A stretch of DNA of 64,000 nucleotides, from positions 7,370,720 through 7,434,719 of the forward strand of contig NZ_KI912266.1 in the NCBI RefSeq assembly GCF_000235425.2. Reading direction: 5' to 3'. How positions within the stretch are numbered: position 1 is the first letter of the stretch; each line of letters begins with the position of its first letter. A program made the translations under genes and the position numbers. The DNA is from Pseudofrankia saprophytica. Lineage in GTDB: Bacteria; Actinomycetota; Actinomycetes; Frankiales; Frankiaceae. The notes under the pieces were generated by a model. The model was not told the origin of the DNA and searched no databases. It saw only the letters and a program-made list of their open reading frames with translations. This document shows, one piece after another, positions 22,514 to 58,280 of the stretch.

Positions 22514-23713
22514 TCAGAGGACGAACGGCAGCTTCTCGTAGCCGCGGACGGTGCTGGTGTGCAGCCGGACGGCGCGGTCCCGGTCGACGTCCCACCTGGG
22601 GAAGCGGCGCAGCGTCTCCTCGATCGCGACGCGCGCCTCCAGCCGGGCGAGACCGGCGCCGAGGCAGAAGTGGATGCCGTGGCCGAAGGACATGTGGCTG
22701 TCGGACGTCCGGTGGATGTCGAAGCGGTCGGGGTCCGGGTACCTGCGGTCGTCGCGGCCGGCGGAGCCGGTGAGCAGCAGCACCTTCGACATCGCGGGGA
22801 TCGTCACGCCGTGCAGCTCGACCTCGCGGGTGGTCATGCGGCCCTGGACCGGCGACGGCGGCTCGTAGCGCATCAGCTCCTCGACCGCGTTCGGGACGAG
22901 CGCGAAGTTGGCGGCGAGCTCGGCCCGCTGGTCGGGATGGTCGGCGAGCACCGAGCCGAACCAGCCGAGGAGGCGGGCGACGGTCTCCGTGCCGGCGCTG
23001 ACGATCTCCTGGGCGACGGTCGCGGCCTGCTCGGTGGAGAGGCGGCGGGGGCCGTCCTCGGAGGCGATCTCGGCCTCGGCGAGGCCGGTGATCATGTCGT
23101 CGCGGGGTACCTTGCGGCGCGCCTCGATCTGCTCGTGCCAGTACGCCTTGAGCTTCACCGTGGCCGCGCGCGAGATGTCGTTGCTCATCCCGGCGGTCTC
23201 GTCGTGGTGAAACGTCAGGTCGATCGTCCTGCGGATCTCCTCGCGGTCCGCCGGGTCGACGCCGATGAGCTCGGAGATCACCTTCGACGGGAGCTGCGCG
23301 GCGAAGTCCTGGACGTAGTCGAAGCCGCCCCCGCCGACGTGCGGGTCGAGCATCTCGGCGCACAGGCCGCGGATGGCGCCCTCCAGCCGGGCGACCCGGC
23401 GCGGGGTGAACGCCCGGGAGACGAGCGCGCGCAGCATGTTGTGGACCGGGGGGTCGGAGAAGATCAGGAACACGGGCGGCATCGGCTCCGGGCTCATGAT
23501 CTCCAGGACGGTACCGTGCGCGGAGCTGAACGTCGCCGCGTCGCGGTGGGCCTCGTCGACGTCGGCGTAGCGGGAGAGCGCGTAGAAACCGAACCGCTCG
23601 TTGCGGTAGAGCGGTGACTCGGCGCGCATCCGCTCCCACACCGGGTACGGGTCGGTGTCGATCGTCTTGTCGAACGGGTCCCAGTACAGGTCAGCCACGG
23701 CCGTCGGCGTCAT
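22514..23713 (-). CDS. Cytochrome P450 (bacterial class I type)
   Basis: A 399-residue soluble P450, first gene of the minus-strand operon. The I-helix oxygen-activation motif is SAGTETVARLLG (about 239-250), the ExxR is EELMRYEPPSPVQGR (about 279), and the heme loop is FGHGIHFCLG with the axial Cys at residue 350. It hydroxylates an unknown substrate with electrons from a ferredoxin encoded elsewhere; no ferredoxin is next to it. The closest relative in the window is the P450 at 33313, with the same length, the same N-terminal ADLYWDPFD/TELYWDPYD start and the same C-terminal LHTSTVRGYEKLP. Confidence 0.93.
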   Translation of the reverse strand: MTPTAVADLYWDPFDKTIDTDPYPVWERMRAESPLYRNERFGFYALSRYADVDEAHRDAATFSSAHGTVLEIMSPEPMPPVFLIFSDPPVHNMLRALVSRAFTPRRVARLEGAIRGLCAEMLDPHVGGGGFDYVQDFAAQLPSKVISELIGVDPADREEIRRTIDLTFHHDETAGMSNDISRAATVKLKAYWHEQIEARRKVPRDDMITGLAEAEIASEDGPRRLSTEQAATVAQEIVSAGTETVARLLGWFGSVLADHPDQRAELAANFALVPNAVEELMRYEPPSPVQGRMTTREVELHGVTIPAMSKVLLLTGSAGRDDRRYPDPDRFDIHRTSDSHMSFGHGIHFCLGAGLARLEARVAIEETLRRFPRWDVDRDRAVRLHTSTVRGYEKLPFVL

Positions 23714-33149: not shown

Positions 33150-33312
33150 GGATGCGGCACTCTGTGCCATAGTGGTGTGGAGGGCGCTCCTCAGGGCAGT
33201 TCCGGCGCGCACCGGCCTGCCCTGGCCGATGGCCACTCGCCGACACCTGCCGGACGGCGGCCGCGTCGCCACGGGGCGCGCCGCCGTCAGCCGAATCCGG
33301 TTTGTCTCCCGA

Positions 33313-34512
33313 ATGAAGGTCGCGGACGTGACGGAACTGTACTGGGACCCGTACGACACGGTGATCGACACCAACCCGTATCCGGTGTGGCACCGGATGC
33401 GCGACGAGGTGCCGGTGTACCACAACGAGAAGTTCGGTTTCTACGCCCTGTCCCGGTTCAAGGACGTCGACGACGCGAGCCTCGACCCGGCGACCTTCAG
33501 CTCCGCCTACGGCACGGTGCTCGAGATCATGGGCGACCAGCCCTACGACAACGGCATGATCATCTTCACGGACCCGCCGTCGCACACGATGATGCGCGTG
33601 CTGGTGTCCCGCGGCTTCACCCCGCGCCGGATCGCCGCGCTGGAGAGCCACATCCGCACGCTGTGCGCCCAGCTGCTCGACGAGCGGGTCGGCAGCGGCG
33701 GCTTCGACTTCGTCCAGGACTTCTCCGCGATCCTGCCCTCGATGGTCATCTCCGAGCTGATCGGCGTCGACCCGGCGGACCGCGAGGACGTCCGGAAGCT
33801 GATCGACACCACCTTCTACATCGACCCGGAGAAGGGGATGGTCAACGACATCTCCTTCGGGGCCCAGATCAAGCTGCACGAGATCTTCAGCGAGACGATC
33901 GAGGCCCGCCGCAAGGCGCCGCGCGATGACGTCATGACGGCGCTGACCGAGGCCGAGATCAAGACCGCCGACGGCACCCGCAAGCTGACCACCAAAGAGG
34001 CGACCGACTTCACCAACCTGCTCGTCTCCGCCGGCACCGAGACCGTCGCCCGCCTCCTCGGCTGGGCCTGCGCGCTGCTCGCCGAGCACCCCGACCAGCG
34101 CGCCGCGCTCGTCGCGGACCCGACGCTGCTCTCCGGCGCCGTCGAGGAGACGCTGCGGTACGAGGCCCCCTCCCCCGTGCAGGGCCGCACGACCACCCGC
34201 GAGCTGGAGATGCACGGGGTCACGATCCCGACGCATTCCAAGGTGCTGCTGCTGACCGCCGCGGCCAACCGGGACGAGCGCAAGTACCCCGACGCCGACA
34301 CCTACGACATCCGGCGCAAGTTCGACAGCCACGTGAGCTTCGGGCACGGCCCGCACTTCTGCCTCGGCGCCTCGCTCGCGCGGATGGAGGGCCGGGTCGC
34401 GCTGGAGGAGGTCCTGAAGCGGTTCCCGACCTGGGAGATCGACCACGACAACGTGCACCGGCTGCACACCAGCACCGTGCGCGGCTACGAGAAGCTGCCG
34501 ATCCTGCTCTGA
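33313..34512 (+). CDS. Cytochrome P450, paralogue of 22514-23713
   Basis: A 399-residue P450. The start at ATG 33313 gives the same N terminus as its paralogue (VADVTELYWDPYDTVIDT); a GTG 15 bp on, preceded by GAAGG, is possible. The I-helix is SAGTETVARLLG, the ExxR is EETLRYEAPSPVQGR, and the heme loop is FGHGPHFCLG with Cys350. Like its paralogue it has no ferredoxin neighbour. Linked to the LLM gene upstream and convergent to a cupin gene. It may hydroxylate the same class of molecule as the enzyme at 22514. Confidence 0.92.
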   Translation: MKVADVTELYWDPYDTVIDTNPYPVWHRMRDEVPVYHNEKFGFYALSRFKDVDDASLDPATFSSAYGTVLEIMGDQPYDNGMIIFTDPPSHTMMRVLVSRGFTPRRIAALESHIRTLCAQLLDERVGSGGFDFVQDFSAILPSMVISELIGVDPADREDVRKLIDTTFYIDPEKGMVNDISFGAQIKLHEIFSETIEARRKAPRDDVMTALTEAEIKTADGTRKLTTKEATDFTNLLVSAGTETVARLLGWACALLAEHPDQRAALVADPTLLSGAVEETLRYEAPSPVQGRTTTRELEMHGVTIPTHSKVLLLTAAANRDERKYPDADTYDIRRKFDSHVSFGHGPHFCLGASLARMEGRVALEEVLKRFPTWEIDHDNVHRLHTSTVRGYEKLPILL

Positions 34513-45755: not shown

Positions 45756-45861
45756 TGTCTCACCAGGCGCGCCCCGGGGCACGCGACAGCCAGTCGGGAA
45801 TGGCGCGCGGGTGGCGGGCCGTGGGCCGACTCGACGACGTGGTCGTCGACGCTCACCATGA

Positions 45862-47469
45862 CTAGGTCTGCGACGTCCACGGGACACCTTCCTTCTCACC
45901 GATGAGGTCGATCACAAGCCGCCGGCCGAGCTCGGAGGACTCGATGTCCGGCGAGTTGGCGTCTAGGGACTGGGCCCAGACACTCGCGGCGCGGGCGCTG
46001 TCCTCGGCCTCGAACGCGGCGACCAGTTCCGGGAAGAGCGCGACCAGGCGATGCGTCTCCGCGAGCCACGCAGGGTCGGTCGCGGCGCCGGCCGTGGGGT
46101 TCGCCTGGGCGTCCAGGCGGACCCACTGCAGGACCTCGCCGATGACGGCGAGCGCCGGATTCTGGGTGGCCCCGAAGATGATCTGGCGCGCCGTCGTCCA
46201 GGCCTCCGACAGGTCGGAGGCGTCCCTCGGCGGTGCCGTCAGGCCCGCGGCGAGCGACCGCAGCGTGGCCAGCGACGCTGGATCCATCCTCGCCGCCGCC
46301 AGCTCGATCATGGAAGGCTCGATCATCGCGACGGCGCGGAAGAAGTCTCCCATCGTGGCGTGCCGGGCCTGCATGACAGTGCTGGCCAGCTGCACCGCCA
46401 CCCGCGGCGACGGATGCCGGACCTGGGGCCCGTTGCGGTCGCCGGCACGCAGGTCGACGAGGAACTCCATTTCCAGGATCCGTAGCGCCTCCCGCAACGT
46501 CGGCCGCGAGACCCCGAACTGCGCGGCCAGGTCCGGCAGGCCCGGCAGCCTGTCCCCGTCTCCCAGACGCCCCTCGGCGATGCGGGCCCTGATCTCGTCC
46601 GCGACCGTCGCGGCCAACCGGTTCGGCTGCCCCGGTGGGGGATACTGCCCCGGCGCGGCGGGGGCGTTCCGCGGCCGCCACAGTGGCACGACGTCGATCG
46701 GCTGGCGGCTGCGCCCCCGGTCGACGAGGAGCGGGCTGGTGACGGCCAGGTAGCCGGCCCATGCCCTTCTCGCCTTCGACCCGTCGCGCCGCAGGGCGGC
46801 GTCCAGGAACGCGCTGTGGCACTCGGCGACCGTCCGAGCGATCTGCTCCGCCGACGCCGGGCCAGAGGGGGCGACGGCCGCGTACACCTGTCCCGCGTAG
46901 ACATCGCGGAAGATTCCGGCGACGAGCCCGACCGACCGGTTGCCAGACCGCTCGGTGACCGCGGTGTCGAACCCCGCCGCGGCCATGACGAACGTCAGCG
47001 GATCATCCTCGGCCGCCCGTTCCTGGTCGTGAAGCCGCCCGAGAACGTGCAGGTCCGCGGCGGAGCAGCGAACCGCGAACCGCTCGGCGAGTGGCGGCTC
47101 GAGGACCGCCCGGGCATCCTCCAGATCCGCCAGCGTCGTTCCCCGCAGCTGCAGAAGAAGCGCGAGGTAGCGGCCGATCGAGGCGACTCCGGGACGGCGG
47201 ACGACGGCACCGCCACCGCGACCGCGCCGGACCTCGACCAGCGACTGCGACTCGAGAACCCGCAGCGCCTCACGCACGGTTTCCCGCGACACGTCGAAGG
47301 TGGCGGTGAGCTCCGCCTCGGTCGCCAGTTGTTGGTCGGCGACGAGCTCACCGGACAGGATCTGCCGCCGCAGCTCCATCGCGACGAGGTGCGAGACCTT
47401 CGCCTCGCGCGGCGCCCGTGCCGACCTGTCCGCGCCTGCCGAGCCGACGTCGGCCGGTTGGGCGATCAT
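45862..47469 (-). CDS. Double GntR-FCD regulator (two complete repressor units in one chain)
   Basis: A 535-residue protein containing two successive GntR modules. Winged helix 1 (LATEAELTATFDVSRETVREALRVLESQSLVEVRRGRGGGAVV, about 49-90) precedes an FCD-like helical domain (about 112-245). A Pro-rich linker (about 260-282) leads to winged helix 2 (DRLPGLPDLAAQFGVSRPTLREALRILEMEFLVDLR, about 306-341) and FCD 2 (about 370-515). Ordinary FCD regulators are 220-250 residues and act as dimers, so this chain could be an intramolecular pseudo-dimer. ATG 47469 is preferred; a GTG at 47637 is possible. It is divergent from the P450-ferredoxin operon, which it probably controls. The usual FCD metal-binding motif is not clear in either half. 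Confidence 0.85.
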   Translation of the reverse strand: MIAQPADVGSAGADRSARAPREAKVSHLVAMELRRQILSGELVADQQLATEAELTATFDVSRETVREALRVLESQSLVEVRRGRGGGAVVRRPGVASIGRYLALLLQLRGTTLADLEDARAVLEPPLAERFAVRCSAADLHVLGRLHDQERAAEDDPLTFVMAAAGFDTAVTERSGNRSVGLVAGIFRDVYAGQVYAAVAPSGPASAEQIARTVAECHSAFLDAALRRDGSKARRAWAGYLAVTSPLLVDRGRSRQPIDVVPLWRPRNAPAAPGQYPPPGQPNRLAATVADEIRARIAEGRLGDGDRLPGLPDLAAQFGVSRPTLREALRILEMEFLVDLRAGDRNGPQVRHPSPRVAVQLASTVMQARHATMGDFFRAVAMIEPSMIELAAARMDPASLATLRSLAAGLTAPPRDASDLSEAWTTARQIIFGATQNPALAVIGEVLQWVRLDAQANPTAGAATDPAWLAETHRLVALFPELVAAFEAEDSARAASVWAQSLDANSPDIESSELGRRLVIDLIGEKEGVPWTSQT

Positions 47470-48042
47470 GCGATCAGTACCATCGCGCCGCACCGCCGCC
47501 GCGCCGCGGCACCGTCCCAGTAGAGGCGTGAGATGTCGTCCGGCCACGGCCACGGCCGCTGGTCTGTCACCGCGAGGCCTCCACGCCTGTCCGCCCATCT
47601 GTCCGCCGACGGCAGCAGACAACCGCAGACGAGACACCTCGTCAACTGTTTACCGCTCGCGGAGCGACCCAGGTCGTCAGCGCGAACGGGAAGTTGACGC
47701 TTGACGGCCAGCCTCGTCAGATGTTTATGTATGCCATCCGAGATCGACACCGAGAGCACACGGTGGTCGAGATGACGTTCGGCAAGATCCGAAACGTCCG
47801 GCGAGGCCGCCCTGCTTCCGGTCTGACTCGGCCGGTCAGGGCAGCCGGGCCCTGCCCCGACCCACGCCTGGGTATCCGCCGCGCCGCCTGGCATTGACGC
47901 GTTCACCGCGGGCGCCCTGAGGCGCGAAGGAGGAGCATTTTCGCATCTCCTTTGGCCTTCTGGGCGCTGCTCGAACCCGCCGTTCCCACCCGCCTGGTGA
48001 GACACAAACGCCGCACCCTTCGATCACCTGTGGAAGGTCGAT
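47470..48042. other. Divergent regulatory region between the double GntR gene and the P450 operon
   Basis: No gene recognised in 573 bp. It contains the GntR-type sites at 47641-47653 and 47716-47728, two TTGACG boxes (47694, 47701), and an inverted AAGGAG...CTCCTT pair (47927-47932, 47947-47952). The latter could fold near a ribosome-binding-site-like AAGGAGGAG that has no clear start codon behind it. Confidence 0.5.
47641..47728. promoter_or_regulatory. Two repeated GntR operator candidates with an overlapping promoter
   Basis: GTCAACTGTTTAC (47641-47653) fits the palindrome GTnAACnGTTnAC. A second, related site GTCAGATGTTTAT lies at 47716-47728, and both are preceded by CTC. TTGACG at 47701 with TATGTA at 47726 (19-bp spacer) may be the rightward promoter, with site 2 over its -10 box. 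Two sites would suit a regulator with two DNA-binding domains per chain. Confidence 0.5.
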
Positions 48043-49254
48043 ATGTCGTACAGCGATCGGGCGCCCGCCGACGAGGAGCGCCGTCGGCTCATGCACCAGC
48101 GATCAGCGTGCCCTCGGGATTACTTCGCCGAGCTGCGGGCCCACGGGCCGACGGCGCCGCTGCTCGAGAACGACACCATCACCTGTTTACTCAATCGTCG
48201 CGACGTCGAGGACGCGCTGAAGAACTGGCAGGACTTCACGTCCGACTTCGGCGGGGTCATGGGGAGCGAGGAGCCGCTCATCCCCCTCAATGTCGACCCG
48301 CCGCTGCACGCGAAGTACCGCCGACTGCTCGACCCCTACTTCGGCCCGCGCAGGATGAAGGCTCTGCAGCCCGCGGTCGAGAAGCACACGAACGACCTGA
48401 TCGACGCCTTCATCGGCCACGGCGGCTGCGACTTCTCCCAGCAGGTCGCGGTACCGCTGCCGTGCTCGACGTTCCTGAGCCTCTTCGGCCTGCCGCTGGA
48501 AGAGCGCGACGCGCTGGTGCGGTGGAAGGACATCATGATCCGCCCGGACGTCGTCGCCGAGGATCCGAGCCAGGCGCAGCAGCTCCAGCTCGAAACGGCC
48601 ATGGAGATCTACGGCCGGTTCACCGAGGAGATGGCCGACCGTCGCGGGAACCCGCGTGACGACCTGATCACCTATCTCACGCAGGTGGAGGTCGAGGGGC
48701 AGAGACTCACCGACAGCGAGATAGTGCGCATCTGCTTCCTGCAACTGTCCGCCGGGCTGGACACCGTGACCATCTCCCTCGAGTGCATCTTCGCCTTCCT
48801 CGCCGCCCACGACGACGCGCGCAGGATGCTGGTCGAACAGCCAGGCTCGGAGGTCGACCTCATCGAGGAGCTCCTGCGCTGGGAGACGCCGGTGCAGGCG
48901 GTCGGGCGCCAGGCCACCCGGGACATCACGCTCCGGGACGGCACCGTGATCCCCAAGGGGACGGACGTCAACCTCATGCTCGCCTCCGCCAACGTCGACC
49001 CGGACGGCCTGGCGGGCGCCGACGAGGTGGACGTGCGGCGCGGCGAGATGCGCAGCTTCGCGTTCGGTGGCGGACCGCACCGCTGCCTCGGATCGAACCT
49101 GGCGCGCATGGAGCTGCGCACCGTGGTGCGGGTCTGGCACGACCGAATCCCTGAATACTCCTTGCAGCCGGGCACGGACGTGGAATGGAACAGCTCGCTC
49201 TTACGCGGCGTCGACCACCTGCGGCTCGCCTGGCCGGCCGGAGCGGCCGCATGA
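48043..49254 (+). CDS. Cytochrome P450, first gene of the two-P450 operon
   Basis: A 403-residue P450 from ATG 48043 with GGAAGG upstream. The I-helix is LSAGLDTVTISLE (about 237-249), the ExxR lies in EELLRWETPVQAVGRQATRD near 283, and the heme loop is FGGGPHRCLGSNLARME with Cys348. The stop overlaps the start of a ferredoxin gene (ATGA), a usual sign that this ferredoxin is its redox partner. It would hydroxylate or demethylate an unknown substrate. CYP family not assignable by eye. Confidence 0.94.
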   Translation: MSYSDRAPADEERRRLMHQRSACPRDYFAELRAHGPTAPLLENDTITCLLNRRDVEDALKNWQDFTSDFGGVMGSEEPLIPLNVDPPLHAKYRRLLDPYFGPRRMKALQPAVEKHTNDLIDAFIGHGGCDFSQQVAVPLPCSTFLSLFGLPLEERDALVRWKDIMIRPDVVAEDPSQAQQLQLETAMEIYGRFTEEMADRRGNPRDDLITYLTQVEVEGQRLTDSEIVRICFLQLSAGLDTVTISLECIFAFLAAHDDARRMLVEQPGSEVDLIEELLRWETPVQAVGRQATRDITLRDGTVIPKGTDVNLMLASANVDPDGLAGADEVDVRRGEMRSFAFGGGPHRCLGSNLARMELRTVVRVWHDRIPEYSLQPGTDVEWNSSLLRGVDHLRLAWPAGAAA

Positions 49255-49448
49255 AGATCTGCATCGACTCCGACCTCTGCGCCGGGCACGCCCGCTGCTG
49301 GGAGACCGCGCCCGATCTTGTCGTCGACGACGAGGACGGACGCGGCGTCGTGCGCGCCCCCGGCGCCGACATTCCACCGGAACTCGAGGCGCAGGCCCGC
49401 AAGGCAGCCAGCGTGTGCCCGGAAGGCGCGGTCGTCCTCTCGGACTGA
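49251..49448 (+). CDS. [3Fe-4S]-type ferredoxin, P450 partner
   Basis: A 65-residue ferredoxin starting MKICIDSDLCAGHARC, overlapping the P450 stop by 4 bp. The cluster motif is Cys10-x-x-His13-x-x-Cys16 with the distant Cys56-Pro (VCPEGAV). His in place of the second Cys is typical of mycobacterial and streptomycete P450 ferredoxins that carry a [3Fe-4S] or modified cluster. The middle is strongly acidic. It should pass electrons from a ferredoxin reductase, not encoded here, to the upstream P450. Confidence 0.92.
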   Translation: MKICIDSDLCAGHARCWETAPDLVVDDEDGRGVVRAPGADIPPELEAQARKAASVCPEGAVVLSD

Positions 49449-49511
49449 GAACTGGGACATCAATAGCCGGCTACCTCGCGCGGGTGCGGGAAATGCCCTG
49501 TGGAGCGATTG

Positions 49512-50828
49512 ATGCCGAAGAACGAGAAGGAGACGACCGAAACAATGCCCGACTACAGCACGACCGACTTCTTCCTGGGCCCGGATCTCGTCGAGAACCC
49601 GTATCCGTACTTCGAGTACCTGCGCGGCCAGTGCCCGGTGCACCGCGAGAGCCAGCACGGCGTCGTCATGGTCACCGGTTTCGAGGAGGCCGTCGAGATC
49701 CAGAACGACGCGGAGCGTTACTCATCGTGCAACTCGGTGGCCGGCCCGTTGTTCCCGTTCCCGGTGCCGCTCGAGGGCGACGACATCAGCGCGCTGATCG
49801 AGGCGCATCGCTACGAGCTGCCGTTCAGCGACATGTTGCTGTGCCTCGACCCACCGGAGCACACGGCGCATCGCGGGCTGCTGATGCGGCTGATCACGCC
49901 GAAGCGCCTGCGGGAGAACGAGGCGTACATGCGTCAGGTCACCCAGCGCCAGATCGACACGTTCATCGACAAGGGCGGGTGTGATTTCATCCGTGATTTC
50001 GCCACTCCGTTCACCCTGCTCATCATCGCGGATCTGATCGGCGTTCCCCCACAGGACCGGGACGGGTTCCTGGAGGGTATGTCCCAGCCCACGGGCGGTG
50101 GCGTCGGCAGCACGACGGGCGAGGCGATGGGCGCCAACCCGCTCGCCTGGCTCTACGAGAAGTTCGCCACGTACGTCGAGGACCGCCGTCGCGACCCGCG
50201 GGACGACGTGCTCACCGGGCTGGCGACCGCCACGTTCAAGGACGGCTCCCTGCCCGAGGTCATGGACGTCGTGCGCATCGCCGCGATCATCTTCGCGGCC
50301 GGCCACGAGTCCAGCACGCGCTTCCTCTCCAGCGCGTTCAGGATCCTCGCCGAGGAGCCGGCGGTCCAGGCCAGGCTGCGCGCCGAGCCAGGGCTCATCC
50401 CGAACTTCATCGAGGAGACCCTGCGCATGGAGAGCGTGGTCAAGGGCGACTTCAGGCTCGCCAGGGTCCCGACAGAGGTCGGCGGGACGGAGATCCCCGC
50501 CGGCAGCCACGTGTTCCTGCTGCATGGAGCGGCCAACCGGGACCCCAGGAAGTTCGAGAACCCGTCGGAGTTCCAGCTGGAACGCCCCAACGCGCGCCAG
50601 CACCTCGCCTTCGGGCGGGGCGTGCACACCTGCCCAGGCGCCCCGCTCGTGCGCAGCGAGGCGGCCGTCGCCATCGAGCAGTTCCTCGCCCGTACCAGCG
50701 ACATCCGCTTCTCGGAGGAGGTCCACGGCTCCGCCGGGGCGCGCCGGTTCGACTACGTTCCCTCGTTCGTGCTGCGCGGCCTCACCGGCCTCACGCTCGA
50801 GTTCGACCCGCGGGGCGCCGCCGCATGA
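49512..50828 (+). CDS. Cytochrome P450, second P450 of the operon
   Basis: A 438-residue P450 from ATG 49512 (GTG at 49500 also possible), with an N-terminal extension MPKNEKETTETMPDYSTTDFFLGPDLVENPYPYF. The I-helix motif is FAAGHESSTRFL (about 263-274), with Glu-Ser rather than Asp/Glu-Thr at the acid-alcohol position. The ExxR is EETLRMESVVKGDFR and the heme loop is FGRGVHTCPGAPLVRSE with Cys374, where the canonical CxG is CPG. It is clearly a different family from the first P450. The stop overlaps the LLM gene (ATGA). Confidence 0.93.
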   Translation: MPKNEKETTETMPDYSTTDFFLGPDLVENPYPYFEYLRGQCPVHRESQHGVVMVTGFEEAVEIQNDAERYSSCNSVAGPLFPFPVPLEGDDISALIEAHRYELPFSDMLLCLDPPEHTAHRGLLMRLITPKRLRENEAYMRQVTQRQIDTFIDKGGCDFIRDFATPFTLLIIADLIGVPPQDRDGFLEGMSQPTGGGVGSTTGEAMGANPLAWLYEKFATYVEDRRRDPRDDVLTGLATATFKDGSLPEVMDVVRIAAIIFAAGHESSTRFLSSAFRILAEEPAVQARLRAEPGLIPNFIEETLRMESVVKGDFRLARVPTEVGGTEIPAGSHVFLLHGAANRDPRKFENPSEFQLERPNARQHLAFGRGVHTCPGAPLVRSEAAVAIEQFLARTSDIRFSEEVHGSAGARRFDYVPSFVLRGLTGLTLEFDPRGAAA

Positions 50829-51715
50829 CGGACCCTGCCCGTCCGCCGCGGGTCGGGCTTCTCTACCGGCAGACCGACGCGTCGATGCCGCTGGTCGACC
50901 TCGCCCACGCCGCCGAGGAACGCGGCTTCGACTGCGTCGTCGTCGGCGAGCACACCCACATCCCGGTCAGCCGCCTGTCCCCGTTCCCCGGCACCGTCGA
51001 CGGCGAGCTGCCCGACGCATACCCCCATTTCCCCGACCCGTACGTCGCGCTCGCGTTCATCGCCGCGCGGACCTCGCTGCGGATCGCCGCGGGCATCGCC
51101 CTCGTCGCCCAGCACGACCCGATCGCGCTCGCGAAGACCATCGCGACGCTCGACCACCTGTCCGGCGGGCGGTTCACCCTTGGCGTGGGGTTCGGCTGGA
51201 ACCAGGAGGAGCTCGCCAACCACGGGAAGGACTTCGCCGACCGCCGGGAGATCGTCCACGAGCACATCGAGCTGATGCGGGCGCTGTGGACGCAGGAGGA
51301 GGCCGAATACCACGGCCAGCACGCCAACCTGGAGCGCAGCTGGTCCTGGCCGAAGCCCGCGCAGGGCTCGGTGCCCGTGCTGCTCGGTGTCCAGGGCGGC
51401 GACCGCGGCTTCGAGGCGATCATTGGTTGGGCCGACGGCTGGCTTCCGGGCGGGAGCCACGGGAGGTGGCTGGCCGCGAAGCTCGCCGAGCTGCGCAGCA
51501 GGTGGGTCGACGCCGGCCGCCCCGCGTCCGGCCCCATCGTGTGGCCCATGCAGGACGTGGTCGACGACGACCGGCTGCGCGTCCAGCTCGACCGCTTCCA
51601 CGAGCTCGCGGTCGACCAGGTGGTTCTCGACATCCCGACCACCACCCGCGAGGAGATCCTGCCGCTGCTCGACCGCTACGCGAAGGTCGTCACGGCCGAG
51701 TGGGGCCACCGGTGA
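50825..51715 (+). CDS. LLM-class F420-dependent oxidoreductase
   Basis: A 296-residue luciferase-like enzyme, coupled to the P450 (ATGA) and to the next ferredoxin (GTGA). It begins with RVGLLYRQTD, has GEHTHIPVSR near residue 39, and FTLGVGFGWNQEELANHGKDFADRR near 118-142. WSWPKPAQGSVPVLLGVQGG and IIGWADGWLPGG follow. The paralogue at 53676 shares nearly the same architecture and several long identical stretches (YRQTD/YRATD, SWSWPKPAQ), so the operon contains two copies of this enzyme type. The substrate may be the product of one of the P450s. Confidence 0.92.
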   Translation: MTDPARPPRVGLLYRQTDASMPLVDLAHAAEERGFDCVVVGEHTHIPVSRLSPFPGTVDGELPDAYPHFPDPYVALAFIAARTSLRIAAGIALVAQHDPIALAKTIATLDHLSGGRFTLGVGFGWNQEELANHGKDFADRREIVHEHIELMRALWTQEEAEYHGQHANLERSWSWPKPAQGSVPVLLGVQGGDRGFEAIIGWADGWLPGGSHGRWLAAKLAELRSRWVDAGRPASGPIVWPMQDVVDDDRLRVQLDRFHELAVDQVVLDIPTTTREEILPLLDRYAKVVTAEWGHR

Positions 51716-51921
51716 GGGCCGAGGTCGACGACACCGCCTGCGCCGGCCACGGCATCTGCGTCGGCCACGCTCCCGAGGTGTTCGAGCTGACCGGCGAGGG
51801 CTACTCCGTCGTGCGGGTCGACGAGGTCCCGGCCGCGTACGAGGCCGCTGTCCGCCTGGCGGCCAGACAGTGCCCGACGTACTCCATCACGATCACGGAA
51901 GGCATGGGCAACGATGGCTGA
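51712..51921 (+). CDS. Second [3Fe-4S]-type ferredoxin
   Basis: A 69-residue ferredoxin from GTG 51712 overlapping the LLM stop. It begins VRAEVDDTACAGHGICVGHAPEVF: Cys10-x-x-His13-x-x-Cys16, with a later Cys-Pro (QCPTYSI, about residue 54). The same cluster type as the ferredoxin at 49251, but a divergent sequence. It probably serves the second P450. Its end overlaps the SDR start by 8 bp. Two separate ferredoxins for two P450s in one operon argue for dedicated electron routes. Confidence 0.9.
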   Translation: MRAEVDDTACAGHGICVGHAPEVFELTGEGYSVVRVDEVPAAYEAAVRLAARQCPTYSITITEGMGNDG

Positions 51922-52750
51922 TCAACCAGCGGGCACGTTGAGCGGCAAGGTCGTCATCATCACGGGCGCCGCGTCGGGGATGGGGCGGGCGGCCGCGGTG
52001 CGGTGCGCCGAGCTGGGCGCGGCGGTGGTCGCCGCCGACCTGAACGCCGACGGCGCGGCCGCCGTCGCCGGGGCGATCGAGGCGTCCGGCGGTCGCGCGC
52101 TCGGCTTCGGCGTCGACCTGACCGTGGAGGACGAGGTGACCGCGCTCGTCGACGCCGCGGTCGCCCGGTTCGGCACGGTGCACGGGCTGCACAACAACGC
52201 CTACGCGGTTCATCCGGGAGCGGCGGTCGACCTGGTCAACACGACCCTTCAGGCGTGGGACTGGACGATTCGGACGTGCCTGACCAGCCAGTTCCTGTGC
52301 TGCCGCGCCGTGCTCCCCCACATGCTGCGCAATGGAGACGGATCGATCATCAACGTGTCGTCCGGCAACGGGCTGGCCGGCTCGGCGACGTCCGCGGCCT
52401 ACGGCGCGGCGAAGGCCGGCAGCATCATGCTGACCAAGTACATCGCGACCCAGTACGGCAAGTCCGGCGTCCGGTGCAACACGCTGGTGCCCGGCTGGAC
52501 CATCGGGACGGGATGGACGGGCGAGGACGACTACACCGACAGCCAGCGGAAGCTGTTCGACCGCGCGCTGGACGACGTGTGCATGCCCCGCCTCGCGCTG
52601 CCCGAGGACATCGCCCCCGTCGTGGCGTTCCTCTTCTCCGACGAGGCGAGGTACCTGCAGGCCGCCACCATCGACGTCAACGGCGGCCTGCTGGCCCACA
52701 TGCCCGGCGCGGCCGGCAGGCCGACCCGGCCCACTCCGGCCACCACATGA
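51914..52750 (+). CDS. Short-chain dehydrogenase/reductase
   Basis: A 278-residue SDR. TGAASGMGR lies at about residues 17-25, and LHNNAYAVHPG replaces the common NNAG at about 92-102. Catalytic residues lie in NVSSGNGLAGSATSAAYGAAKAGSIMLTKY. The tail carries a Pro/Thr-rich end (RPTRPTPATT). It is embedded in the operon, overlapping the ferredoxin by 8 bp and the hydrolase by 4 bp. It may oxidise an alcohol made by one of the P450s. Confidence 0.9.
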   Translation: MADQPAGTLSGKVVIITGAASGMGRAAAVRCAELGAAVVAADLNADGAAAVAGAIEASGGRALGFGVDLTVEDEVTALVDAAVARFGTVHGLHNNAYAVHPGAAVDLVNTTLQAWDWTIRTCLTSQFLCCRAVLPHMLRNGDGSIINVSSGNGLAGSATSAAYGAAKAGSIMLTKYIATQYGKSGVRCNTLVPGWTIGTGWTGEDDYTDSQRKLFDRALDDVCMPRLALPEDIAPVVAFLFSDEARYLQAATIDVNGGLLAHMPGAAGRPTRPTPATT

Positions 52751-53679
52751 GCTCGACGCCGACGCCGATGACGACGGCGAGCGAGCAGGCCCAGGCGATA
52801 CACCAGCTGCTGCGCGACCAGCGAAGCGCCGCCCGGGCGTCGGCCCCGCCGTCCCGCGCCCAGCAGCTCGCCCTGGCCGACGAGATCGGCGCCAGCACGT
52901 CCGAGCCGGACGGGGTGACGTTCGAGGACGTCGACGCGGGCGGGGTGCCCGCGCAGTGGGCGCGGCCCGACGGCGCGCCGACGAGCAGGGCGCTGCTCTA
53001 CTTCCACGGTGGCGGCTACTGCTTCTGCTCCGTCCGCTCCCACCGCAGGCTCGTCGGGCACCTCGCCAGGGCAGCGGGCCGCCCGGCGCTGAGCGTGGAC
53101 TACCGCCTGGCGCCCGAGCACCCCCATCCCGCCGCCGTCACGGACGCGCTGACCACCTACCGGTGGCTGCTCGGCCAGGGCTTCGACCCCGCCCACCTGG
53201 CCGTCGCCGGCGACTCGGCCGGCGGCGGGCTCGCCATCGCGCTCCTGCTGAGGGCGAGGGACGAGGGCGTGTCGCTCCCGTCGGCCGTCGTGCTCCTGTC
53301 GCCCTGGGTCGACCTCGCGATGACGGCCGACAGCCTGACCAGCCGAGTCGACGTCGACGTGCGCCAGAGCCCCGCCGAGACGCGGTGGTGCGCGGGCCAG
53401 TACCTCGCCGGTCAGGACCCACGTGACCCCTACGCGTCGCCGCTGCACGCCGACCTCACCGGGCTGCCGCCTCTGTACATCCAGGCCAGCGACTGGGACA
53501 CGCTCGTCGACGACGCGCACCGCCTGGCCGAGAAGGCCCGGCGCCTCGGCGTCGACGTCCGCCTCGATCTCTTCCCCGAGATGCCGCACGCGCATCAGCT
53601 GTGGGCGGGCACCATGCCCGAGGCCGACGACGCCGTCGCCCGCGTCGGCGCGTATCTGCGAGAAAGGGAAACCCCATGA
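52747..53679 (+). CDS. Alpha/beta hydrolase, HSL-type esterase/lipase
   Basis: A 310-residue hormone-sensitive-lipase-family esterase. The oxyanion-hole motif HGGGYCFCS is at about residues 85-93, the nucleophile elbow GDSAGGG at about 155-161, the acid in SDWDTLVDDAH (about 248-258), and the His in MPHAHQLWAG (about 278-287). The triad is thus complete. Hydrolyses an ester or lactone, for example one formed after oxygenation. Coupled on both sides by ATGA overlaps. No signal peptide, so cytoplasmic. Confidence 0.92.
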   Translation: MSSTPTPMTTASEQAQAIHQLLRDQRSAARASAPPSRAQQLALADEIGASTSEPDGVTFEDVDAGGVPAQWARPDGAPTSRALLYFHGGGYCFCSVRSHRRLVGHLARAAGRPALSVDYRLAPEHPHPAAVTDALTTYRWLLGQGFDPAHLAVAGDSAGGGLAIALLLRARDEGVSLPSAVVLLSPWVDLAMTADSLTSRVDVDVRQSPAETRWCAGQYLAGQDPRDPYASPLHADLTGLPPLYIQASDWDTLVDDAHRLAEKARRLGVDVRLDLFPEMPHAHQLWAGTMPEADDAVARVGAYLRERETP

Positions 53680-54554
53680 CAGGCGCGGCCGCGTTCCCGG
53701 GCGTCGGCGTGCTCTATCGCGCGACGGACCAGATGCCTTTTCTCGAGCTCGCGTACGCCGCCGCCGACCGGGGCTTCACCTCACTCGTCCTCGGCGAGCA
53801 CACCCACATTCCCGTCAGTTCCGACCCCGCCTGCTTTCCCGGCGCCGGGGACACCATTCCCCCGACCTACCCGCGGCTGCTCGACCCGTACATCGCGCTT
53901 TCGTTCGTCGCCGCGCGGACCCCCATGAAGATCGCCACCTGTACGTCCCTTCCCGCCCAGCACGACCCGATTGCCCTGGCCAAGGCCCTCGCGACGCTCG
54001 ACCACCTGTCCGGGGGGCGCCTCACGCTCGGCGTGGGATACGGCTGGAACGCCGACGAACTGGTCAGCCACGGACACGCGTGGAAGAACCGGCGGGCGGT
54101 CGTGCGGGAACACGTCGAGCTCATGCGGGCGCTGTGGACCGAGACCGAGGCCGAGTACCACGGCCAGTACGCCAACCTCGAGCGCAGCTGGTCCTGGCCG
54201 AAGCCGGCGCAGCCCTCGATCCCGGTGCTCCTGGGCGCGGCCGGACGCGGCCTCGCCATGGAGGCGATCGTCGGGTGGGCCGACGGATGGATGCCGGGCG
54301 GAAGCATCAGCTGGATCGCGGACCGGCTCGTGGAGCTTCGACGCCGGTGGGCCGAGGCCGGACGCCCCGCATCCGGCCCGGTCATCTGGGTGGTCCAGGA
54401 CCCCGTCGACGACGACAGATTCCAAGCCCGGCTGGAACGCCTTGCGTCCCTCGGTGTCGCCGAGGTTGTGGTCGCCTTCGACACGGTGGACAAGGACGAG
54501 ATCCTGCCGGTTCTCGATCGCTACGCGAAGCTGATCGCGGCGAACGCCGGCTGA
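53676..54554 (+). CDS. LLM-class F420-dependent oxidoreductase, paralogue of 50825-51715
   Basis: A 292-residue luciferase-like enzyme and last gene of the tightly packed operon. GEHTHIPVSSDPACFPGAGD lies at about residues 44-63, LTLGVGYGWNADELVSHGHAWKNRR near 120-144, and SWSWPKPAQPSIPVLLGAAGRG and VGWADGWMPGG follow. Start ATG 53676 overlaps the hydrolase stop. The duplication within one operon suggests successive or alternative oxidations by F420-type enzymes. Confidence 0.92.
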   Translation: MTGAAAFPGVGVLYRATDQMPFLELAYAAADRGFTSLVLGEHTHIPVSSDPACFPGAGDTIPPTYPRLLDPYIALSFVAARTPMKIATCTSLPAQHDPIALAKALATLDHLSGGRLTLGVGYGWNADELVSHGHAWKNRRAVVREHVELMRALWTETEAEYHGQYANLERSWSWPKPAQPSIPVLLGAAGRGLAMEAIVGWADGWMPGGSISWIADRLVELRRRWAEAGRPASGPVIWVVQDPVDDDRFQARLERLASLGVAEVVVAFDTVDKDEILPVLDRYAKLIAANAG

Positions 54555-56062: not shown

Positions 56063-57373
56063 ATGCAGCGCCTCGGCACCTCCCGTATCGGCATGCCCCG
56101 TAGACGACTCCGACACCGTCCGGTGGCGGCGCTCTTAGCCCTGCCCCTGGCCGCGGTCACCTTCCTGGCCGCCGGCTGCGGCGGCGGCGACAGGACCGAC
56201 ACCGCCACCCCCCAGGCCACGGCGTCGACCGCCACCGACGTTCTCGGGGCAGCGAACCCCGCGAAGGGCCAGCCGATCAAGATCGGCATGATCTCGGACG
56301 GCAAGTACGCCGCCAGCGACGCCACCGTCGAGGGCCGGGTAGCCGACGCGGTCGTGAAGTGGGTCAACGAGCGCCGCGGCGGCCTCGGCGGCCGGCCGAT
56401 CCAGCTGGTCACGTGCGAGACCCTCGGCGACCCGGCCAAGGCCACCGACTGCGGCAACAGGATGGTCGAGCAGAATGTGGCCGCCGTCGTCCTCGGCGGC
56501 CCGGCGTTCCCGCAGCCCTCCTGGAAGCCGCTGCACGACGCCCACATCCCGACGACCTACTACGCCGCGAGTCTCGACGACATGCTCGCCGACCCCGACA
56601 GCACCTTCATCTTCAGTGACCCGGTCTTCAGCGTCGTGCGGCTGCCGCTCGACCTGGCCAAGGAGAAGAAGGCCAAGAAGATCAGCGCCATCGTGATCGA
56701 CATCCCGGCGGCGGTGAGCATCTACCAGAACCAGGCCAGGTCCCTGTACGCGGCGGCCGGCATCGACTTCGAGCTGGTGCCCGTCCCGCCGGACCAGGCC
56801 GACATGACGCCGCAGGCGCAGCGGATCGCGACCGACGGGACCGGCGTCGTCTTCGTCATCGGCGGCGAGCCGTTCTGCACCGCCGCGTTCAGGGCGCTCA
56901 GCCAGGTCGGCTACGCCGGCACGACCGCCAGCATCCCCCAGTGCCTGGGCGAGAACACCAGCAAGGCGGTGCCGGGCAGCTTCCTGAAGGGCATGACCAT
57001 CTCGGCCCAGGCGCCGGCCGACAAGAACGACAGGAGCTACCAGTTGTTCACCGCCGTCGCGGCGACCTACGGCCACGACATCGACATCACCAACGGCGTC
57101 GCGATCGGCATGTTCACGTCGATGGCCGGCTTCCGCGAGGCCCTCGAGGGGATCGCGCCCACCGACCTGACCCCGGCGGGCATCATCGCGGCGCTGCGGA
57201 AGATGCCCGAGAAGCCCCTGCCGGGCGCCGACGGGGTGAAGTTCCGCTGCAACGGCAAGGCCAACCCGTCGACACCGGCCGTGTGCGTGCGCGGCGGGCT
57301 GATCACCGTCCTGGACGACAAGGGCCAACCCACCACCTACAAGCCCATCGGCCAGTCCCCGATCGAGGGCTGA
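56063..57373 (+). CDS. ABC-transporter substrate-binding lipoprotein (LivK/periplasmic-binding-protein type)
   Basis: A 436-residue secreted binding protein. The signal is a basic stretch (MPRRRLRHRP), a hydrophobic helix and the lipobox LAAGC, with lipidated Cys39. The mature part begins with a Thr/Ala-rich linker, then PIKIGMISDGKY and a Leu/Ile/Val-binding-type fold (DAVVKWVNERRGGLGGRPIQLVTCETLGDPAKATDCGNRM). The protein matches the decayed relic at 10326 piece by piece. No permease lies next to it, so the LivHMG/LivF importer 42-45 kb upstream is the obvious partner within this window (inference). Ligand unknown. Confidence 0.9.
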   Translation: MQRLGTSRIGMPRRRLRHRPVAALLALPLAAVTFLAAGCGGGDRTDTATPQATASTATDVLGAANPAKGQPIKIGMISDGKYAASDATVEGRVADAVVKWVNERRGGLGGRPIQLVTCETLGDPAKATDCGNRMVEQNVAAVVLGGPAFPQPSWKPLHDAHIPTTYYAASLDDMLADPDSTFIFSDPVFSVVRLPLDLAKEKKAKKISAIVIDIPAAVSIYQNQARSLYAAAGIDFELVPVPPDQADMTPQAQRIATDGTGVVFVIGGEPFCTAAFRALSQVGYAGTTASIPQCLGENTSKAVPGSFLKGMTISAQAPADKNDRSYQLFTAVAATYGHDIDITNGVAIGMFTSMAGFREALEGIAPTDLTPAGIIAALRKMPEKPLPGADGVKFRCNGKANPSTPAVCVRGGLITVLDDKGQPTTYKPIGQSPIEG

Positions 57374-57461: not shown

Positions 57462-58280
57462 CTAGTCGGGGATGGCGCGCAGGTGCCTGGCCATGGCCAG
57501 CGGAGTGACGGTCAGGACGCCGGAGTCGACGGGCAGGGTGACGCCGGTGACCCAGCGGGCGTCGTCGCTGGCGAGGAAGCCGACCGCCGCGGCGACGTCC
57601 CAGCCGGTGCCCTCGGTACCGAGCAGTCCGGCCTCCTTGCGCAGCGTGTCGACGTAGGTGGAGGACTGGCCGGGGATCGACAGCACCATCGGCGTGACGA
57701 TGTGGCCGGGGGCGATGGCGTTGACCCGGATGCCCTGCCGGCCGTGCGCGTACGCCATCTCGACGGTCATGGCGAGCATGGCACCCTTGGCGGCCGAGTA
57801 GGCGATCGTGCCGTCGCCGCGCAGCCCGGAGATCGACGCGATGTTGACGACCGAGCCCGAGCCCTGCGCCGCCATCACCGGGAGCGTGTACTTGCAGGCC
57901 AGGAACATCGTGCGCAGGTTGATGTCCAGCGCCTTGTCCCAGGCCTCCTCGGTGATGTCGATGACCGTGCCGACCGAGGCCATGCCGATGTTGTTGACGA
58001 GGATGTCGATGGTCCCGAACGCGTCGACGGCGGCCTTCGCCATCGCCTCGCAGGTGGCGGCCTTGGTGCAGTCGCCGGCGAAGACCTCCGCCTTGCCGCC
58101 CTCGGACTCGATCAGCTTCTTCGTCTCCTCGGCCCGGTCGGCGAACAGGTCGACGAGCAGCACGCTCGCCCCCTCGCGCGCGAGCACCACCGCGCTGGCC
58201 TTGCCCGTGCCGACGCCCGGGCCGGGCGTCGAGCCGGCCCCCGTCACGATCGCGACCTTGCCCTCGACCCGACCGGCCAT
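57462..58280 (-). CDS. Short-chain dehydrogenase/reductase
   Basis: A 272-residue SDR from ATG 58280 behind GAGAGGGG. The motif TGAGSTPGPGVGTG at about residues 12-25 is an expanded Rossmann loop with an insertion relative to TGxxxGxG. The NNIGMA motif follows near 93. Catalytic residues lie in NIASISGLRGDGTIAYSAAKGAML. The C terminus (WVTGVTLPVDSGVLTV) is standard. The extended glycine loop is unusual and may alter cofactor binding. It is downstream of the thiolase-like/DUF35 pair on the same strand (89-bp gap), so possibly in one operon with them. Confidence 0.88.
   Translation of the reverse strand: MAGRVEGKVAIVTGAGSTPGPGVGTGKASAVVLAREGASVLLVDLFADRAEETKKLIESEGGKAEVFAGDCTKAATCEAMAKAAVDAFGTIDILVNNIGMASVGTVIDITEEAWDKALDINLRTMFLACKYTLPVMAAQGSGSVVNIASISGLRGDGTIAYSAAKGAMLAMTVEMAYAHGRQGIRVNAIAPGHIVTPMVLSIPGQSSTYVDTLRKEAGLLGTEGTGWDVAAAVGFLASDDARWVTGVTLPVDSGVLTVTPLAMARHLRAIPD

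Follow-up and report, generated by a model that had tools for sequence, protein, structure and literature searches.

Several described systems stand close to parts of the locus reported here. CYP150A5 of Mycobacterium marinum, together with the CxxHxxC ferredoxin Fdx8 and a suitable reductase, converts beta-ionone into 4-hydroxy-beta-ionone (PMC6237146), and pyrene-degrading mycobacteria without nid genes have been described as carrying cyp150, suggested there as a possible cause (PMC10301208). In Mycobacterium tuberculosis the gene of CYP143 adjoins that of its own CxxHxxC ferredoxin, FdxE (PMC9868604, PMC6237146), and PtmU3 and AibH2 have been described as dinuclear oxygenases of the PF04909 family (PMC10811679, PMC7782822). 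The locus analysed here lies in a 64,000-nucleotide stretch of Pseudofrankia saprophytica (contig NZ_KI912266.1, forward-strand positions 7,370,720 to 7,434,719), hereafter the window, and is an operon encoding two cytochromes P450 (P450a and P450b), two ferredoxins (FdA and FdB), two luciferase-like proteins (LLM1 and LLM2), a short-chain dehydrogenase (SDR) and an esterase, followed by a ninth gene that encodes a PtmU3-like protein. No paper on this operon was found in the searches made, which covered open-licence PMC literature.

The host, Frankia sp. CN3, now classed in Pseudofrankia, is an actinobacterium of soil and plant roots with a genome of 9,978,592 bases in 2 contigs. The operon is real and constitutes a compact variant of P450-rich actinobacterial catabolic operons, the unusual feature being the presence of two P450-ferredoxin pairs together with a PtmU3-like oxygenase. 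The overlapping genes, a divergent regulator, the P450-ferredoxin pairing, the metal-ligand residues of the ninth protein, the selection acting on the genes and the content of sister clusters point, with a probability of about 0.58, to an inducible 11.6-kb island for the breakdown of a cyclic organic compound of low reactivity, in all likelihood a plant or soil terpenoid or another alicyclic substance.

Operon layout and enzyme classes

The genes of the operon, including the ninth gene, are the following:

48043..49254, + strand: P450a, cytochrome P450; the closest solved P450 is CYP143 (36% identity)
49251..49448, + strand: FdA, CxxHxxC...CP ferredoxin, partner of P450a by Pfam (Fer4_15), motif and the neighbourhood of P450a relatives
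49545..50828, + strand: P450b, CYP150 family; alternative starts at 49500 (GTG) and 49512 (ATG)
50825..51715, + strand: LLM1, luciferase-like oxidoreductase of TIGR03619
51712..51921, + strand: FdB, CxxHxxC...CP ferredoxin (Fer4_15) with GTG start, CYP150-type partner
51914..52750, + strand: SDR, short-chain dehydrogenase by Pfam and motifs
52747..53679, + strand: esterase of the hormone-sensitive lipase type (Abhydrolase_3, Pfam E 2.2e-60); the best solved match is EstD11
53676..54554, + strand: LLM2, tandem paralogue of LLM1, TIGR03619
54677..55924, + strand: ninth gene, PtmU3-like member of PF04909; by sequence, predicted fold and ligand positions probably a dinuclear non-heme oxygenase

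The first eight genes were re-derived from the sequence in the order that the initial annotation had given, and the Pfam families of all of them matched its assignments. Six of the seven junctions overlap, by 8 bp at FdB/SDR and by 4 bp at P450a/FdA, P450b/LLM1, LLM1/FdB, SDR/esterase and esterase/LLM2. The sole junction without overlap in this run is the 96-nt gap between FdA and P450b, given the P450b start at 49545, which was favoured because its residue 1 aligns to residue 1 of CYP150A6. The ninth gene begins 122 nt past LLM2. The island contains no recognised gene for a ferredoxin reductase.

The two P450s, both with heme-Cys, I-helix and ExxR motifs, are only 30% identical over 333 residues, and the earlier view that they belong to different families and that each has its own CxxHxxC ferredoxin was upheld. 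An identity of 40% to a named member is the usual limit for the same CYP family. P450b, 51.7% identical to CYP150A6 over 424 columns (E 3.8e-148), lies above this limit and is by sequence a CYP150 family member. An assignment of P450a to CYP143 was rejected, as the 36% identity over 332 columns is below the same limit; CYP188, whose CxxHxxC partner has 65 residues (PMC6237146), is a conceivable alternative family. The cluster motifs of the ferredoxins, CAGHARC...CP in one and CAGHGIC...CP in the other, have His at the variable place, and both proteins combine the CXX?XXC(X)nCP motif defined for P450-associated ferredoxins (PMC6237146) with adjacency to a P450 gene.

Such adjacency is frequent in this genome, which contains 67 P450 loci (77 rows before 10 fragment rows were merged), 59 of them on contig 1. 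Among the 16 Fer4_15 ferredoxins of contig 1, 12 are located at most 4 kb from a P450, as compared to 0.91 expected from 2000 random draws; contig 2 has one Fer4_15 ferredoxin. The operon is the only 7-kb stretch of contig 1 with two P450s and two such ferredoxins. In other genomes, a related ferredoxin gene was found directly downstream in 21 of 28 CYP150 relatives (L127-L154) and in all 11 P450a relatives with E values of 1e-95 or better, which come from the genus g2 (presumably Frankia) and a third genus, the best 4 candidates per genome having been scored. From this recurring pairing, FdA most likely belongs to P450a and FdB to P450b, LLM1 having come between FdB and P450b. The resemblance to the M. 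marinum system lies in the CYP150 protein and in the CxxHxxC ferredoxin accompanying the CYP150A5 gene (PMC6237146), whereas here LLM1 separates the CYP150 gene from its presumed ferredoxin gene and a second P450-ferredoxin pair is found in the same operon. P450a shares with the FdxE-CYP143 system the adjoining CxxHxxC ferredoxin (PMC9868604, PMC6237146), but not the CYP family.

LLM1 and LLM2, about 61-62% identical to each other, scored 236.2 and 215.3 bits against TIGR03619 (cut-off 166.9), and both are members of this F420-labelled subfamily. They had been called F420-type oxidoreductases; the subfamily assignment stands, and the use of F420 is putative, being suggested by the family label. 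The predicted LLM1 model (predicted local distance difference test score, pLDDT, 91) had luciferase-like monooxygenases, which use flavin mononucleotide, at ranks 1-19 of the 50 fold neighbours listed (15-22% identity); Mer (rank 20 onwards) and glucose-6-phosphate dehydrogenase (rank 46), both F420-dependent, came after them. By the predicted fold, LLM1 is thus alike to luciferase-like monooxygenases and to F420-dependent enzymes, and the search does not separate the cofactors. An F420 ligase is encoded in the genome, and therefore F420 is probably available.

The SDR, with TGxxxGxG and YxxxK motifs, has PtmO8 as its best solved match (E 1.6e-49). The esterase, with HGGG and GDSAG motifs, belongs to the broader Abhydrolase_3 family and scored 280.8 bits, below the cut-off of 430, for the GESAG motif hormone-sensitive lipases (NCBIfam NF058651). 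In camphor-type pathways, a P450, an alcohol dehydrogenase, a luciferase-like Baeyer-Villiger monooxygenase and lactone opening follow one another. The enzyme classes of the operon could run the same order of steps, and luciferase-like Baeyer-Villiger chemistry followed by esterase or lactonase opening, as proposed in other bacteria (PMC5395668), would fit them; the likeness is one of enzyme class, and the LLM proteins differ in falling into an F420-labelled subfamily.

The PtmU3-like ninth gene

The ninth gene encodes a protein of the Amidohydro_2 family (PF04909; 66.1 bits, cut-off 26.4) whose closest solved relative by sequence is PtmU3 (6omp, E 9.1e-38), followed by DitZ (6.7e-19). The predicted model of the protein (mean pLDDT 72) was aligned by VIA-align to PtmU3 with Z 38.1 and a root-mean-square deviation (rmsd) of 3.0 over 342 aligned residues at 30% identity, and the next-ranked structure gave Z 31.9, rmsd 3.1 and 331 aligned residues. 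Two sequences were left out of the structure-prediction alignments, one with stop codons (L094) and one with an unknown residue (L217).

The metal ligands of AibH2 are listed as D25, H27, H211, E265, D337 and H340 (PMC7782822, PMC10401708), and an acidic residue two places past the last His is described as conserved in binuclear members only (PMC7782822). The ninth protein keeps the six ligand positions (D, H, H, E, D, H) and the acidic residue as D10, H12, H197, E273, D368, H371 and E373, all of them invariant in 14 aligned proteins; these ligands were assigned by order and spacing and not from superposed side chains. From sequence and model, it is a probable dinuclear non-heme oxygenase and would be the third oxygenase of the operon. 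It resembles PtmU3, an enzyme of platensimycin biosynthesis, as well as AibH2 and SfbO, in fold, ligand residues and the binuclear-type acidic residue; unlike them it is encoded next to P450 genes, in an operon that is probably catabolic and lacks a Rieske protein, and its identity to PtmU3 is low. A reading as a plain amidohydrolase was dropped on the PtmU3 match and the ligand check, with a caveat from same-fold decarboxylases that stands and is given below.

The same residue test has been applied to the 69 PF04909 genes of the genome, with a profile that was built from ligand-bearing genes, and is thus biased to finding them, and with no negative control family. Five genes gave no usable frame; among the 64 readable ones, 59 have the six ligands, 52 of these with the acidic residue and 7 without it, and in the other 5 ligand sites are missing or different. 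Up to 52 of the 69 genes could thus encode dinuclear oxygenases.

Distribution, island edges and regulation

P450a at 94% identity or more was found in 2 of 35 genomes of the family, CN3 included, and LLM1 at E 1e-80 or better in the same two. Among 393 genomes of the class, LLM1 matched at E 1e-75 or better in three, the third at 51% identity, so that only CN3 and Pseudofrankia sp. BMG5.36 reach at least 60% (best 6 candidates per genome scored), and CYP150 matched at E 1e-110 in 50 (best 4 candidates per genome). A scan of named genomes with short exact peptide patterns, by which distant versions could be missed, retained 80 of 99 confirmed loci; only BMG5.36 was close (95%), the other 79 loci being at most 47% identical. 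The full gene set was present in none of these 79, many of which end at contig ends, and the next best loci, two from Rhodococcus (L047, L049), matched six query types over about 11 kb at 26-47% identity. Matches in 602 plasmid records were all below 60%. Each part belongs to a known family, and among the genomes searched the combination was found, outside CN3, only in the closely related BMG5.36. The initial annotation had named a gene order conserved in no relative, together with a lack of co-transcription, as the finding that would speak against the operon; the complete order is kept in BMG5.36, and in this one relative only among the genomes examined.

The nine genes showed no gaps or stops over the part aligned with BMG5.36. 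Their ratios of nonsynonymous to synonymous substitutions (dN/dS) were 0.049 to 0.544, FdA having the lowest, which indicates by sequence comparison that all nine are under purifying selection and that the operon is functional. Their dS values (0.09-0.28) are like those of the flanks (0.10-0.20), and therefore the island was probably present in the common ancestor of CN3 and BMG5.36.

The remaining features of the island are the following:

45790..45824, no strand: imperfect 35-nt direct repeat at the island edge, left copy, 29/35 identical to the right copy
45862..47469, - strand: GntR2, double GntR-FCD regulator by Pfam, divergent from the operon; the frame could start at 47637
47470..48042, no strand: intergenic region between regulator and operon, presumed promoter region by position only
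56063..57373, + strand: importer-type binding protein (Peripla_BP_6) by Pfam; broken in BMG5.36
57462..57496, no strand: right copy of the repeat, in the 3' end of the flanking SDR gene

An empty site was found in another genome of the same genus (G028), where a major facilitator superfamily (MFS) gene on the left and an SDR gene on the right, the same genes that flank 11.8 kb in CN3, are about 115 nt apart. The nine genes, the regulator and the binding protein are therefore considered an 11.6-kb island. At the empty site, a single stretch corresponds to both copies of the repeat; the left copy forms, in BMG5.36, the end of a longer remnant that resembles a gene. The scan of the island genes reported neither an integrase nor a transposase, so that the island is called so by its position only. 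The empty site may reflect loss in G028 or gain in CN3 and BMG5.36, and in a further, one-contig genome (G029) the MFS and SDR flanking genes match far apart. The initial annotation, right about the eight genes, had missed the ninth gene, the regulator, the binding protein and the nature of the region as an island.

In GntR2, the GntR and FCD families are each matched by two stretches in one frame, the halves being 37% identical over 123 residues, and the comparison with BMG5.36 was gapless, with a dN/dS of 0.272. A sigma-70 scan of 47470-48042 gave no site, and no promoter or terminator signal exceeded those of shuffled sequences. In all five Pseudofrankia loci fetched of the eight listed with GntR2 relatives (53-60%), P450, ECH and SDR genes were found within about 6 kb. 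One 16-kb contig (L296, contig 401 of G034) contains ferredoxin, double GntR, ECH, P450a-like, SDR and CYP150 genes, and so shares many parts with the island in a different arrangement.

Elsewhere in the window, two more P450s are encoded at 22517-23713 and 33172-34509, with OB_ChsH2 and Thiolase_C_1 genes near them; the second is immediately preceded by an LLM gene. This neighbourhood is reminiscent of steroid side-chain degradation sets.

Probable catabolic function and alternative explanations

The earlier proposal of a degradative rather than biosynthetic setting has gained support from sister clusters and from the pairing with importer genes. A paralogue of the ninth gene (52-56% identity) was found 3.7-5.2 kb from a CYP150 gene (50-51% to P450b) in six of eight Pseudofrankia genomes, CN3 included. 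An acyl-CoA dehydrogenase gene is present in all six clusters, KstD-like and FMO-like genes in three, and a gene of the 3-carboxyethylcatechol 2,3-dioxygenase type in five, the contig of the sixth ending early. The joint occurrence of CYP150, the PtmU3-like gene and a ring-cleavage dioxygenase in these clusters supports catabolism. In genus g2, the P450a-ferredoxin pair directly follows ATP-binding cassette (ABC) importer permease and ATPase genes in all five loci whose sequence extends far enough, while in five of six loci the pair is followed by a gene for a binding protein. Taken with the GntR neighbourhoods, this setting favours, by gene content, the catabolism of a ring compound over biosynthesis.

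The cluster of CN3 itself (L290, contig 1, 7278000-7297000) contains CYP150, ferredoxin, ECH, two SDR, acyl-CoA dehydrogenase, PtmU3-like, LigB-type ring-cleavage dioxygenase, KstD-like and FMO-like genes. It is like the operon in its CYP150 (50%), ferredoxin, SDR and PtmU3-like (52%) genes, and unlike it in having the ECH, acyl-CoA dehydrogenase, KstD-like, FMO and ring-cleavage dioxygenase genes, with no LLM or esterase gene detected in its 19 kb. One g2 locus (L037, 5272-13978; also L036, L038, L043 and L044) is composed of genes for a binding protein, an ABC permease and ATPase, a P450, a CxxHxxC ferredoxin, a second binding protein and a TetR protein, and looks by gene content like an import-and-oxidise unit.

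In the mechanism proposed for the catabolic island, electrons would pass from a ferredoxin reductase encoded elsewhere through FdA to P450a and through FdB to P450b, which would hydroxylate unactivated carbons, and the SDR would oxidise the alcohol to a ketone. LLM1 and/or LLM2 would then act on the ketone or on its unsaturated product, either inserting oxygen in a Baeyer-Villiger reaction or transferring hydride with F420, and the esterase would open the resulting ester or lactone or take off an acyl group. A further C-H hydroxylation, possibly of a coenzyme A (CoA) thioester, may be carried out by the PtmU3-like enzyme, and the products would be taken up by CoA-dependent and beta-oxidation enzymes whose genes lie outside the island. 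The substrate or one of the intermediates is probably the signal for the double GntR protein. Gene content and order, the overlaps, the families, the recurrent pairing of P450s with ferredoxins, the ligand residues, the selection and the empty site come directly from the analysis, whereas the order of the steps, the LLM cofactor, the metal content, the regulation and the substrate, best guessed to be a cyclic terpenoid or an alicyclic compound, are those that we infer.

Several observations weigh against this catabolic interpretation. The substrate and the products are hypothetical. The ninth gene, 122 nt apart, could have its own transcript; SfbO and AibH2 (Z 30.4 and 30.1) are level with same-fold decarboxylases (Z 29.6 and below), and therefore the fold by itself is no proof of an oxygenase. 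A Rieske protein, by which related oxygenases are recognised in PMC10811679, was not detected in the gene set of the island. In addition, PtmO8 and PtmU3, to which the SDR and the ninth protein are closest among solved structures, are antibiotic biosynthesis enzymes. Of the PtmU3-like relatives at 65-67% identity (n=5), which are closer than those at 52-56%, four were annotated (L206, L207, L209, L210), and all four lack a neighbouring CYP150 gene. With regard to pairing, 7 of the 28 CYP150 relatives have no ferredoxin alongside, a related ferredoxin beside CYP150 was detected in only two of the six sister clusters, none of 11 weaker P450a relatives (L017-L027, 40-44%) has such a ferredoxin adjoining, and importer genes on both sides were found in none of the five P450a loci of the third genus. 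Finally, the binding-protein gene is broken in BMG5.36, where only residues 1-48 of 436 align and about 1 kb is absent, and the highest dN/dS values are those of FdB (0.54) and the esterase (0.40).

The matches to PtmO8 and PtmU3, both from platensimycin-type biosynthesis, would also suit a cassette that tailors some secondary metabolite, a terpenoid in all probability, and in which the P450s, SDR, LLM and PtmU3-like oxygenase decorate a scaffold made elsewhere. The very narrow distribution of the operon would agree with such a cassette, and CxxHxxC-type ferredoxins serve natural-product P450s too (PMC6237146). We consider this explanation unlikely, since the sister cluster has ring-cleavage dioxygenase and acyl-CoA dehydrogenase genes and the closer P450a relatives pair with importer genes. 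Moreover, the initial statement that no polyketide synthase or nonribosomal peptide synthetase is nearby held good, neither these families, at the E-value limits used, nor terpene synthase being reported among the 50 window proteins scanned, with no genome-wide search for the three families.

A detoxification unit, which would inactivate a toxic plant or microbial compound not used as carbon source, might account for the esterase, the P450s, the GntR-type control and the MFS efflux gene of the DHA2 type that lies immediately beyond the island edge. It is an improbable explanation, as the MFS gene is part of a flank that exists without the island, the CN3 island has an importer-type binding protein, and three probable oxygenases exceed the needs of a simple inactivation. 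Least probable is a mosaic in which one promoter drives oxidoreductases that are each useful on their own and do not form a single linear pathway. For this reading the tandem LLM copies and the different settings of the relatives (P450a with importer genes, CYP150 in 50 of 393 class genomes, the ninth gene with other neighbours) could be cited, against the complete, gapless and stop-free order under purifying selection in BMG5.36 and a translational coupling that favours joint function.

An inducible catabolic island is therefore the preferred explanation; the narrower proposal of a previously undescribed pathway, with two P450s and a PtmU3-type dinuclear oxygenase acting on one cyclic substrate, is put forward as a tentative and rather doubtful one. 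P450-ferredoxin pairs are hard to match to substrates, and here two natural pairs are available with their likely downstream enzymes in a compact, expressible unit. Through the ninth gene, P450 catabolism is connected with an oxygenase family that is still young, and many "amidohydrolase" proteins in such genomes may be oxygenases. If the proposal of an undescribed pathway is true, the PtmU3 type of oxygenase would move from antibiotic biosynthesis into the catabolism of a larger cyclic carbon source, and many non-heme oxygenases of the genus would be hidden under the annotation of amidohydrolase.

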